Source: Gemmatimonadota bacterium
GTDB lineage: Bacteria > Gemmatimonadota > Gemmatimonadetes > Gemmatimonadales > GWC2-71-9
Reading direction: 5' to 3'
DNA: 36,747 bases
Assembly: GCA_003221045.1 (NCBI GenBank)
Contig: QHUC01000110.1
Span: forward strand, 1 to 36,747
Position numbers and translations under genes: made by a program. The notes beneath the pieces are model-generated. The model did not search any database. It was not told the DNA's origin and saw nothing but the letters and a program-made list of their open reading frames with translations. Of this stretch, positions 12,000 through 19,585 are shown in pieces (within the stretch, counting starts at the first letter, position 1; every line of letters starts with the position of its first letter).

Positions 12000-13295
12000 A
12001 TGTCCAGGCTGGTGAGCGACTCCGCTGCGTGCTGTTGGATCCCCCTCTTCGCGCTGCGCTGCGAGGTAGCCCGGATGGCCAGGCAGGGGTCTTCTTCTCT
12101 CCCCCTCCCCTTTCCCTTGGCGCTCCTCTCGCCGGACACCGGCCGCCGGCTCTGGCAGGTCAGTCCGGTCGCCCGGCGCGCGGGGGTCAAGCCGGGGATG
12201 ACGGTCAGCCAGGCAATCGGCCTGTGCCCCACCCTCAAGCTGTGCGAGCCGGACCCGGTTCACTATGACGAGCAATTCTCGCGGCTCGTCGCGACGCTTG
12301 CCACCGTGAGCCCTGTCGTCGAGCCCGCGGAACTGGGGCGAGCGTACATAGGAACCGACGGATTAGAAGGACTGTTCGGTGCGCCCGAGAAGATCGTTGA
12401 GATGATACAGTGCGGAGTGCGGAATGCGGAGTGCGGAATTGCAAATGAAAGCTCGCTCGTCAAATCCGCACTCCACACTCCGCACTCCACACTCCGAGTC
12501 GGGTGGGCCCGCGGAAAGTTCGTCTCCTGGGTGGCAGCGAGCAGGGCGAAGCCGGGGCAGGCCATCATCGTTTTCCCGGGGGAGGAGGGGGAATATCTCG
12601 CCGCTCAGTCGATCGCCGTGCTGCCCCTCGACCCCGATACACATCGCCGGCTGCTGCAGCTCGGGATCAGGACGCTCGGAGCGTTGGCCGCGCTTCCGGA
12701 AGAGGCAGTGGTCTCGCAGTTCGGCCGCGCCGGTCGTCGGATGTGGCGGCTCGCTGCGGGGCGGATCGCGGAGCCGGTGGTAGGGCGAGTCGTGCCCGAG
12801 CCGATCGTGGCGGCGCTCACGTTCTATTCCCCGGTTGGGGAGCGGGAACTGCTGGCGCGAACATTGGACACGCTCCTCGACCGTGCGCTCAAGAATCCGC
12901 GTCGGATCGGTTGGCGCGTGCACGTGGTGTGTGTCCGAGCCGAGCTCGAGCACGGCGCGTCCTGGCGCGCGACGGCGACGTTGAAGGATCCGACCGCGGA
13001 CCGGGAGCGGTTGGCCGCGCCCCTCCGTTCGCAGCTCGAGCAGTCGCCGCCTGCTGGAGCGGTCGAGCGGCTGGCGGTCGAGTTCACCGCGTTCGCGCCG
13101 GGCACAGCCGAGCTGCAGCTGTTCGCACGCGATGCGAATGCCGCAGCTCGCGCCGGGCGGCGGCACGCGCTCAAGAGCGCCGTCCGGGAGATCGAGCTCC
13201 GGATCAAACGGCCGATGTTGTATCACGTCATCGAGGTGCAACCATGGTCTCGTCTCCCCGAGCGGCGGTACGCGCTGATCGACTATGAACCATAG
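12000..13295 (+). CDS. imuB: ImuB-like Y-family polymerase homologue (start uncertain)
   Basis: 'RRAGVKPGMTVSQAIGLCPTL', 'PAELGRAYIGTDGLEGLFG', 'GIRTLGALAALPEEAVVSQFGRAGRRMWRLA'; directly upstream of a DUF6504-like ORF and dnaE2. Internal repeat-derived peptide 'CGVRNAECGIANESSLVKSALHTPHSTLR'. Confidence 0.87.
   Translation: MSRLVSDSAACCWIPLFALRCEVARMARQGSSSLPLPFPLALLSPDTGRRLWQVSPVARRAGVKPGMTVSQAIGLCPTLKLCEPDPVHYDEQFSRLVATLATVSPVVEPAELGRAYIGTDGLEGLFGAPEKIVEMIQCGVRNAECGIANESSLVKSALHTPHSTLRVGWARGKFVSWVAASRAKPGQAIIVFPGEEGEYLAAQSIAVLPLDPDTHRRLLQLGIRTLGALAALPEEAVVSQFGRAGRRMWRLAAGRIAEPVVGRVVPEPIVAALTFYSPVGERELLARTLDTLLDRALKNPRRIGWRVHVVCVRAELEHGASWRATATLKDPTADRERLAAPLRSQLEQSPPAGAVERLAVEFTAFAPGTAELQLFARDANAAARAGRRHALKSAVREIELRIKRPMLYHVIEVQPWSRLPERRYALIDYEP
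12411..12497. repeat. heptamer inverted-repeat element, family A, inside imuB
   Basis: Left arm TGCGGAG TGCGGAA TGCGGAG TGCGGAA TT (12411..12440); right arm CCGCACTCCACACTCCGCACTCCACACTCCGA (12466..12497). Confidence 0.85.
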
Positions 13296-13297
13296 TT

Positions 13298-13327
13298 CGG
13301 AATGTGGAGTGTGGAGTGCGGAATGAA
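13298..13327. repeat. heptamer arm, family A, upstream of the DUF6504-like ORF
   Basis: cggaatgtggagtgtggagtgcggaatgaaa. Confidence 0.8.
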
Positions 13328-13603: not shown

Positions 13604-13632
13604 AGCACTCCACATTCCACACTCCGCACTCT
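13604..13632. repeat. heptamer arm, family A (inverted relative to 13298), immediately upstream of the dnaE2 ATG
   Basis: agcactccacattccacactccgcactct, abuts ATG 13633. Confidence 0.8.
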
Positions 13633-16600
13633 ATGTACGCCGAGCTCCACTGCCACTCCGCCTTCTCGTTCCTCGACGGCGCCTCGCTCCCCGAGCAGCT
13701 CGCGCTCACCGCCTCACAACTCGGGCTTCCCGCACTCGCGCTCACCGACCACAACGGGCTGTACGGCTCGATGGCGTTTGCACAGGAAGCGAAGCAGCTC
13801 GGTCTCCAGGCGATCACGGGCGCCGAGCTGACGTTGCTCGACGGCTCGCACGTGACGCTGCTCGCCGAGACGCCCGAAGGGTATGCGAATCTGTGCCAGC
13901 TGATCACGGAAGCGCATCTCGGCAGGGAGGACCGGCACGATCCGCGGCTCGACTTCGCCTCGCTCGAAGCACGTCACCATGGGCTCATCGTGCTGTCGGG
14001 ATGCCGAAACGGATTGCTCCCCGGCGTCCTGCGGCGCGACGGCCTGGCCGCAGCCCGCCGCTTCGCCGAGCGCTGCCGAGCGGTGTTCGGAAGGGAGCAC
14101 TTCTTCGTCGAGTTGCAGAGGAACTACGTCCGCGGAGACCTCGCCCTCACGCGAGCGCTGCAGGACGTCGCCGATTCCGTACGACTGAGCGTCGTAGCGT
14201 CGGGTAACGTGCATTACCACGCCCGCGCCCGGCATCACCTACACGACGTGCTGGTGGCGATCCGGCACCGCACCACGCTCGACGGCTCCCACAACGTGCG
14301 CCGTGCCAACAGTGAGTTCTTCCTGCGGCCGCCTGCAGATATCCATCAACTGTTTCATGACTGTCCGGATGCTGTCGCCAATACATTGACCCTCGCGGAG
14401 CGATGCCGGGGCTTCGATCTCACGCGCGACCTAGGGTATCGCTTTCCCGATTTCCACGGCGCCGACCGCGCCCCTGCGCCGCGGGCGCTCGCCGAGCTGT
14501 GTCGCGCGCGCCTCGACGAGCGCTACCCGGTGGGCTCCGTGCACCGCGATGAAGCAGAGCGGCGACTCGCCGAGGAGCTGCGGTTGGTCGAGCACCACGG
14601 GCTCAGCGGCTTCTTCCTCGTCTATCACGACCTGTTCGACCTGGCCCGCGAGGTCGCGGCCGATGTGCGGCACGGCTCACGGCGCGCGGCAGGGAATCTC
14701 CTGCCCGGGCGGGGGCGCGGCTCGTCCGTCTCTTCCGTCGTGTGCTACCTGCTCGGGCTGTCGCACATCGATCCGGTGGCGACGCGGCTCTTCATCGGGC
14801 GGTTCTTGAACGAGACCCTCGCCTCAGTGCCGGACATCGACCTCGATTTCCCGCGCGAGATCCGCGAGGAGCTGATCCGGCGCGTGTACAGGCACTACGG
14901 TGACGCACACGTCGGACTCGTCTGCTCGTTCCCCACCTATCGCCTGCGCTCGACAGTGCGCGAGATCGGCAAGGCGCTCGACCTGCCTCTGGGGGAGATC
15001 GAGCAAGTCGCGAAACTGGCAGACAGGCGGTCAGGCGGACTGGCGGACGAGCTGGAGCAACTCCCTGGGTTCGAGGGCCGGACCACGGCCCCGCTCTGGA
15101 AGGAGCTGTGCGAGCTGGCGGAGGAGATCGCCGGGCTGCCGCGGCACGTCTCTCAGCACGTCGGCGGCATGGTGATCTCGAGTCGCCCGCTCGTCGAGAT
15201 CGTGCCGCTCGAGCGCGCCGCCATGGAGGATCGCGTGGTGTGCCAGTGGGACAAGGATTCCTGCGACGACGCGCGGTTCATCAAGATCGACTTCCTGGCG
15301 CTGGGCATGCTGTCGCTCGTGGAGGAGTGCGTCGAGCTGGTCGCGACGCGACACGGGACGCCGCCCGATCTGTCGCGCATCGACTTCGAGGACCCCGCGG
15401 TCTACGACCGCATCTGCCGGGGCGACACGGTCGGGTTGTTCCAGATCGAGAGCCGGGCGCAGATGCAGATGATCCGTCGCACCCGGCCCAAGAACCTCGA
15501 AGACCTGGCGGTCGAGGTCGCGATCGTGCGACCCGGGCCGATCGTCGGTGGTGCGGTGAACCCGTACGTGCGGCGTCGGGAGGAGCAGCGCCGCGCCTGG
15601 GAAGCGGGCCGCCCCTACGAGCCGCCGCTCGAGCATCCCCTGCTCAAGGAGGCGCTCGCGGAAACCCTGGGCGTGATTCTCTATCAGGACCAGGTGCTGC
15701 AGGTGTGCCAGGCGCTCGCAGGGTTCACCGCGGGGCAGGCCGAGGCGTTGCGGCGGGCGATGAGCCGGCGGCGGAGCCGCGAGCTGATGGCGGGGTTCTG
15801 GGAGGAGTTCAGAGACGGCGCCGCGGCACGCGGGGTCGCGGAGCGGACCGCCGAGCGCGTCTTCACACAGGTGATCGCGTTCTCCGAGTTCGGCTTCCCC
15901 AAATCGCACGCCGCGGCGTTTGGCCTGCTCGCCTACCAATCGGCGTGGCTGCGGCACTACCATCCGGCCGAGTATTACACCGCGCTCTTCAACAACCAGC
16001 CGATGGGGTTCTATTCGCTCGACGTGTTGGGACGCGACGCGCTGCATAACGGAGTCGATATCAAGCTCCCTGACGTGAATGAGAGTGATGTGTGGTGCAC
16101 GGTGGACCTCACCCCCTCTCCCCCTCTCCGTTCCGGAGAGGGGGAACTCATCGCGTCCCCCCTCTCCCGAAGGGAGAGGGGGGAAGGGGGTAAGGCCGTC
16201 CGTGTAGGTCTCGCGTTCATCCGTGACTGGAGTGAAGAGACAGCGACCTCTGTGGTGACCGAGCGGGAGCGGTGCGGTCCGTTCGCGAGCATCGGCGACG
16301 TCGTTCGCCGCGCTCCGCCCAATCTCAAGCGCACCGCGATCGAGCATCTGGTGTGGGTAGGCGGCTGCGACGGCTTCGGGCTCACCCGTCGCGAGCTGCT
16401 GTGGCAGGTGGGGCTATGGCTCCCGCCCGAGGCGGAGCGCGGCGGCGATGTGGGCGGACGGCGCCAACTCGAGCTCGCGCTCAACCACCCACACGAAGGT
16501 CTCCGGTTCGGCGGCCTCGCGGCGGCCGAGCGCCTGCTCGCCGAGTATGACGTCCTCGGGTTCGCGGCGAGCGGTCATCCCCTGTCCCTCTTGCGAGGCG

Positions 16601-17022
16601 CGCTACCCCGGGGAGTGGTGCAGAGCGACGCGCTCCCCCGGCTCGAGCACGATGCCCCGGTCGAGGTCGCCGGGCTGGTGGTCGCGCGCCAGCGCCCAGA
16701 AACCGCCAAAGGATTCGTATTCGTCCTCCTCGAGGACGAAGGGGGGATGACGAACGTGATCGTCCGTCCCGACGTGTACGAGCGGTACCGCGCGGCGATC
16801 CGCGGCGAGCCGCTCCTGTGGGTGCGCGGTACGCTCGCCAAGGACGACGGGACGGTGAACGTGCTCGCGGAGGAGGCGAAGGGACTGCGTTGCGGATTGC
16901 GGATTTCGGACTGCGAATTTGAAGACCCGCCCGACGCATCCGCAATCCACAATCCGCAATCCGCAATGGCCTTCCTGAAGTCCATGCGCCGCGTGGCGCC
17001 GGAGTCGAAGGATTGGGGCTAA
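13633..17022 (+). CDS. dnaE2: error-prone DNA polymerase III alpha subunit DnaE2
   Basis: '[18 protein letters not shown]' PHP start, '[22 protein letters not shown]', '[21 protein letters not shown]', '[26 protein letters not shown]'. ORF track starts at 13558 but ATG 13633 matches the family start. Confidence 0.95.
16108..16195. repeat. REP-like double-hairpin element inside dnaE2
   Basis: Hairpin 1 CCCCCTCTCCG-TTC-CGGAGAGGGGG (16120..16144); hairpin 2 CCCCCCTCTCCC-GAA-GGGAGAGGGGGG (16157..16183); outer cctcaccccctctccc / ggggaagggggtaagg. Confidence 0.85.
16886..16967. repeat. heptamer inverted-repeat element, family B, inside the 3' end of dnaE2
   Basis: Left arm TGCGGAT TGCGGAT TTCGGAC TGCGAAT TT; right arm ATCCGCA ATCCACA ATCCGCA ATCCGCA AT. 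Confidence 0.85.
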
Positions 17023-19550: not shown

Positions 19551-19585
19551 CCATTCCGCATTCCGCACTCCGCATTCCGCACTCG
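19551..19585. repeat. solo heptamer arm, family A, in lhr
   Basis: cc ATTCCGC ATTCCGC ACTCCGC ATTCCGC ACTCG. Confidence 0.8.

Follow-up and report, generated by a model that had tools for sequence, protein, structure and literature searches.

What is a tandem heptamer repeat, folded back upon itself as an in-frame hairpin, doing inside the gene for ImuB? This question arises from contig QHUC01000110.1, which belongs to the metagenome-assembled genome (MAG) of a soil-dwelling member of the Gemmatimonadetes; the 36,747 nucleotides of the contig constitute the window, that is, the whole stretch of DNA analysed here. Profile matches and frame translation place imuB at 12000..13295 on the + strand, and the Pfam profiles IMS and IMS_C both match the open reading frame that contains the repeat. 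The element, which we call S1, begins with a left array (12411..12438, + strand) of four heptamers with a period of 7, which can be written as GCGGA followed in turn by GT, AT, GT and AT, or as TGCGGAG-TGCGGAA twice over (four TGYGGAR units, here TGCGGAR). A loop of about 23 nt follows (12439..12464, + strand), and then a right array of inverted heptamers (12465..12497, − strand), in which the inverse of the left array spans about 12465-12492. The best ungapped inverted pair joins 12409-12441 with 12461-12493 over 33 nt, is 88% complementary and leaves 19 nt between its arms. The predicted folds reach -29.2 kcal/mol as DNA (z -6.5) and -52.7 as RNA (z -8.0), and in each case 0 of 200 shuffles was equally good.

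A preliminary description of this DNA had proposed inverted-complement heptamer arms at 12411-12497 that remain in frame within imuB and encode a peptide unlike ImuB sequence. The pairing of the arms and the DNA fold z of -6.5 bear out the first of these proposals, ImuB residues 138-166 (12411-12497) translate through with the reading frame kept, and the resulting peptide, CGVRNAECGIANESSLVKSALHTPHSTLR, indeed does not resemble ImuB. It sits between a helix ending in EKIVEMI and the strand VGWARGKF. In an AlphaFold2 model built with 18 relatives, whose mean confidence is modest (66.7), residues 144-163 have a pLDDT below 50 and are flanked by a helix (129-145) and a strand (166-171). No Rfam family matches the element above its gathering score. 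No evidence of regulation emerged, and nothing points to attenuation, for which an RNA-level check had been proposed: S1 is located mid-gene, and its sibling arrays reside in a variety of unrelated genes.

Some twenty heptamer hairpins, the imuB segment among them, are dispersed across the genome. Exact-pattern matching finds the two-unit motif TGYGGARTGYGGARTG at 57 places in the MAG (2.81 Mb), mostly as inverted pairs, and the reversed-pattern control at 0. Extracted copies carry a GCGGA-array on the left and an inverted array on the right, separated by loops of 16 to about 73 nt. This polarity is strict: in three well-sampled genomes and one region from each of three more, the GCGGA-array comes first in 64 of 64 array pairs and the opposite order is found in 0. 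In the same sample, 112 of 157 arms comprise exactly four units; the elements share tandem identical units with slippage-type simple repeats, but not their variable copy number. Members that lie in frame in this genome reside in ImuB, DnaE2, an Lhr-type helicase, RsmA and a ComF-like protein, and others are found at the end of a LeuB-like protein, in N-terminal or signal-peptide regions and between genes (the ComF and LeuB labels were assigned by eye from sequence motifs).

Within the window, S2 is a heptamer array between the imuB stop codon and a small gene (13296..13325, + strand), and S3 is an inverted heptamer array (13608..13632, − strand) directly 5′ of the dnaE2 start codon (ATG at 13633). 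S4 is a GCGGATT-type hairpin in frame near the dnaE2 C-terminus (16882..16968, + strand; DNA fold z -4.9), and S5 is a single array in frame in the gene for the Lhr-type helicase (19551..19583, − strand). S2 probably provides the small gene with its ATG (13323) and with a GGAG motif. This small gene has no Pfam match.

Several side observations concern the same neighborhood. The S2 array is absent in G007 (L088) and G049 (L097), where the small gene seems to start within imuB; with S2 present, the gene appears to gain a new ribosome-binding motif and start codon. Depending on the genome, the small gene also contains other in-frame repeats, namely GGGAAAC, GGGATGC, GGCGGTCA or a 10-mer (L086, L087, L091, L096 and L098). 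Finally, dnaE2 carries a second palindromic insertion at 16111-16200, which belongs to a different family (CCCCCTCTCC...GGAGAGGGGG) and encodes a 30-residue peptide.

The main result comes from comparison with relatives, all of them MAGs of soil Gemmatimonadetes. A heptamer array is present at the same ImuB codon in 16 close relatives, which therefore carry repeats there rather than a homologous, non-repetitive ImuB segment. Three unit types occur among them: GCGGAAT/GT (RT), GCGGATT (TT) and GCGGAAC (AC). In more distant relatives the ImuB linker is unrelated and its length varies (G057 has 7 residues), and several distant genera exhibit period-8 repeats at the S1 position (L067, L070, L075 and L077). 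In an ImuB tree calculated with the insert removed, well-supported sister groups differ in S1 type, such that G024 (TT) is grouped with G053 (RT), G001 (TT) with G009 and G005 (AC), and G002 (AC) with G006 and G004 (RT). The insertion of about 87 bp originally described in imuB thus stands with regard to its hairpin, frame and peptide, but it is not a lone insertion; it belongs to a genome-wide set and marks an old, shared site whose unit has been exchanged repeatedly. Because S1 loop length follows type (16 nt for GCGGATT and 23 nt for GCGGAAC), the whole element, and not its arms alone, may be replaced at this site. The idea that the loop is inherited while only the arms change is unsupported at S1, where loops of different types are 0.34 alike versus 0.29-0.31 for unrelated loops.

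Other sites behave similarly. S2, S3, the DnaE2 C-terminal hairpin and the Lhr array are common to relatives and have differing unit types, and flank comparison outside this region indicates that many arrays of this genome have a TT array of G001 or an AC array of G009 at the corresponding place. Sites within one genome also tend to agree. The S1 type is the dominant type of the genome in 12 of 16 cases (p 0.0016), and the same is true of the junction arrays S2/S3 in 12 of 14 and of the RsmA arrays in 10 of 14. Over all sites, type concordance is 65 versus 31.5 expected (p 5e-5 by permutation), although the type table was coded by hand and the permutations are not ancestry-corrected, and shared ancestry explains part of this concordance.

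RsmA is the sharpest case among the shared sites. Its arrays, which are mutually inverse complements, occupy two linkers that bracket the conserved GDALxLDWHAL segment. Eight units are represented at RsmA across relatives (RT, AC, TT, GGGGCT-like, CAGGTGT, GTRCGCC, GGGGAGC and AAAAGGG), and some relatives have RsmA linkers without arrays. When linker 1 is compared with the reverse complement of linker 2, scores are 18-29 within a genome and medians are 7-14 across types; complementarity is confined to the same genome or unit type (permutation p 2e-5), and this includes five genomes with unrelated heptamers. A prediction derived from RsmA also passed: the unusual RsmA heptamers of G042 and G071 recur at 21 and 23 scattered places, respectively, in the genome that carries them and are nearly absent from the other genomes tested, with the caveat that the reversed pattern of AAAAGGG is also found in G042 and thus its composition is partly repetitive.

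The DNA that surrounds these elements is likewise peculiar. In sister species, the host DNA adjoining S1 is much more different than the remainder of imuB; between G001 and G009, identity is 0.95-0.98 farther away but 0.69-0.82 in the roughly 45 nt before S1 and 120 nt after it, and the same dip is evident beside five other orthologous sites. For five independent pairs, synonymous differences at codons with an unchanged amino acid amount to 0.43 near S1 (within about 100 nt) versus 0.12 far from it (OR 5.7, p 5e-18). Three control pairs that lack the heptamer element give OR values of 1.1-2.8, with a mild excess at the same place in two of them (OR 2.6-2.8), but these pairs are more diverged and therefore less telling.

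Fixed sites, block exchange of the unit in both arms, a genome-wide bias toward one unit and local hyperdivergence are thus established, and the sites include tolerant protein linkers and gene junctions. Moreover, arms at shared sites are spelled differently yet matched, so both must be rewritten together somehow. With slightly less than even confidence, we favor the interpretation that these are old, fragile and mostly neutral palindromes that are rewritten via copying between copies in the genome and template switching at the hairpin. Hairpins would act as fragile spots where replication stalls or breaks, and repair would then use a second copy elsewhere in the genome as the source of an array (ectopic copying). 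Template switching over the hairpin would subsequently make one arm from the other, preserving complementarity, and the flanks would be resynthesised in an error-prone manner. Within genes, copies would survive where they sit in a surface linker without disrupting the frame, and the element would be mostly neutral or selfish DNA rather than a regulator of imuB. Template switching is known to make the two arms of an inverted repeat alike, and stems can arise or be maintained through it (PMC8604942, PMC8794818, PMC7202029). The ectopic copying step, however, is challenged by units such as AAAAGGG and GTRCGCC, which are too dissimilar for simple homologous copying. We infer the rewriting of arms from comparison, the evidence comprising genomes rather than directly observed mutation events.

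The main rival to rewriting is repeated transposition of the whole hairpin, wherein a mobile REPIN- or MITE-like element repeatedly enters and vacates a small number of tolerant sites, the occupant each time coming from whichever family is active in that genome. We consider this scenario unlikely but serious. It accommodates the fixed arm size and polarity, the variant patterns that recur within arrays (e.g. AC/AG/AC/AC), the loop-length classes, the type-specific lengths of the S1 loop and the related loops found at other sites with 1-3 mismatches. It does not readily accommodate the identical position of all unit types, or the RsmA arms, which enclose conserved host coding DNA and hence cannot be produced by a single hairpin insertion. 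The preliminary description had proposed looking for target-site signatures at S1; no target-site duplication was recognised when empty and filled sites were compared by eye. The transposase search covered Y1_Tnp, and we rejected a link to RAYT proteins because the four Y1_Tnp loci in this genome carry other palindromes and no heptamer arrays nearby. As an aside, these four RAYT-like genes (L046-L049) have palindromes of their own, and a different short repeat borders the L049 gene on both sides, in inverted copies.

Exchange of S1 alleles between species by homologous recombination, together with about 100-150 nt of flanking DNA, seems rather improbable. Such exchange could yield the divergent tracts beside S1 in sisters that are otherwise 96% identical, the scattering of unit types over the gene tree and the identical S1 loop of G001 and G069. 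Yet same-type pairs are no more alike beside S1 than different-type pairs (excess 0.006, p 0.38), no near-identical donor is present in the sampled genomes (best near identity 0.87), and the agreement of many sites within one genome is left unexplained. Import from other species may contribute to the pattern, although the sampled genomes do not support this.

It is quite improbable, in our estimation, that a dedicated activity writes genome-specific heptamer arrays at palindromic sites, in pairs and with a fixed length of four units; if one did, a changed template or donor would rewrite sites genome-wide, much like a change of telomere repeat. A selected function is highly doubtful. On this view, the arrays would be binding sites for a protein or would work as hairpins in RNA, with unit and binder changing in step; the retained complementarity, the persistence of sites, the dominance of one unit in a genome and the GGAG motif and start codon that S2 arrays hold for the small gene would fit such a role. 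However, the arrays reside in unrelated genes and linkers, certain relatives lack them or have degenerate versions at the corresponding position (G003, G005 and G057, and G007 for S2), and many genomes contain mixed unit types. An artefact of metagenome-bin assembly has a vanishingly small probability, for although every genome is a MAG, an ordinary read is longer than these elements (70-130 nt), and the same sites recur with the frame kept in bins from independent studies.

If the rewriting interpretation is correct, block rewriting of both arms represents a little-known route of gene change. These genomes form a natural series: one and the same palindrome site in essential or repair genes is rewritten repeatedly while remaining complementary and in frame throughout. 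Comparison of close strains could therefore test directly whether arms are homogenised, whether repeats spread from one dispersed copy to another and whether local hypermutation is linked to the repeats. Two warnings also follow: complementary stem changes, which are usually taken as a sign of selected structure, can arise by DNA copying, and annotated proteins may contain linkers encoded by repeat DNA.

In the open-access literature we found no report of this phenomenon in Gemmatimonadetes, and the literature compared contains no description of fixed sites in multiple genes with the heptamer replaced in concert; because the search was restricted to open-access sources, this absence is weak evidence of novelty. 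Rickettsia palindromic elements (RPEs) are palindromic DNAs inserted in frame in genes, and members of a family share consensus sequences. The heptamer hairpins resemble RPEs in placing a palindrome in frame within unrelated proteins, but whereas RPEs have one consensus per family, the heptamer unit at one fixed site differs between genomes (for overviews of RPEs, see PMC2229807 and PMC10969869). REPINs (PMC3116915) are likewise dispersed inverted doublets that form predicted hairpins with strict polarity and many copies; unlike REPINs, the elements described here have arms built of tandem heptamers, lie partly within genes (in frame in ImuB, DnaE2, Lhr and RsmA), can enclose host coding DNA between their arms and are not adjacent to RAYT genes. 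TAACTGA heptamer repeats of Beggiatoaceae and cyanobacteria (PMC4679880) are dispersed, and some precede start codons, but they are direct repeats of a single unit, nearly all non-inverted and intergenic, unlike the inverted in-frame arrays described here. Coding palindromes of nematomorph mitochondria (PMC6649704) also place inverted repeats within functional coding sequence, although their arms encode conserved parts of proteins, whereas here the arms encode linker and the loop is conserved.

The nearest precedent that we found is the heptamer hairpin of Nostoc trnL P6b, with STRR sequences (2002, via PMC3488679). There, degenerate heptamers are similarly paired as a hairpin, and one site holds either of two sequence classes depending on the strain. 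P6b is one non-coding intron locus of cyanobacteria, whereas the arrays described here occupy many loci, include in-frame copies, comprise at least eight unit types and agree in type genome-wide.
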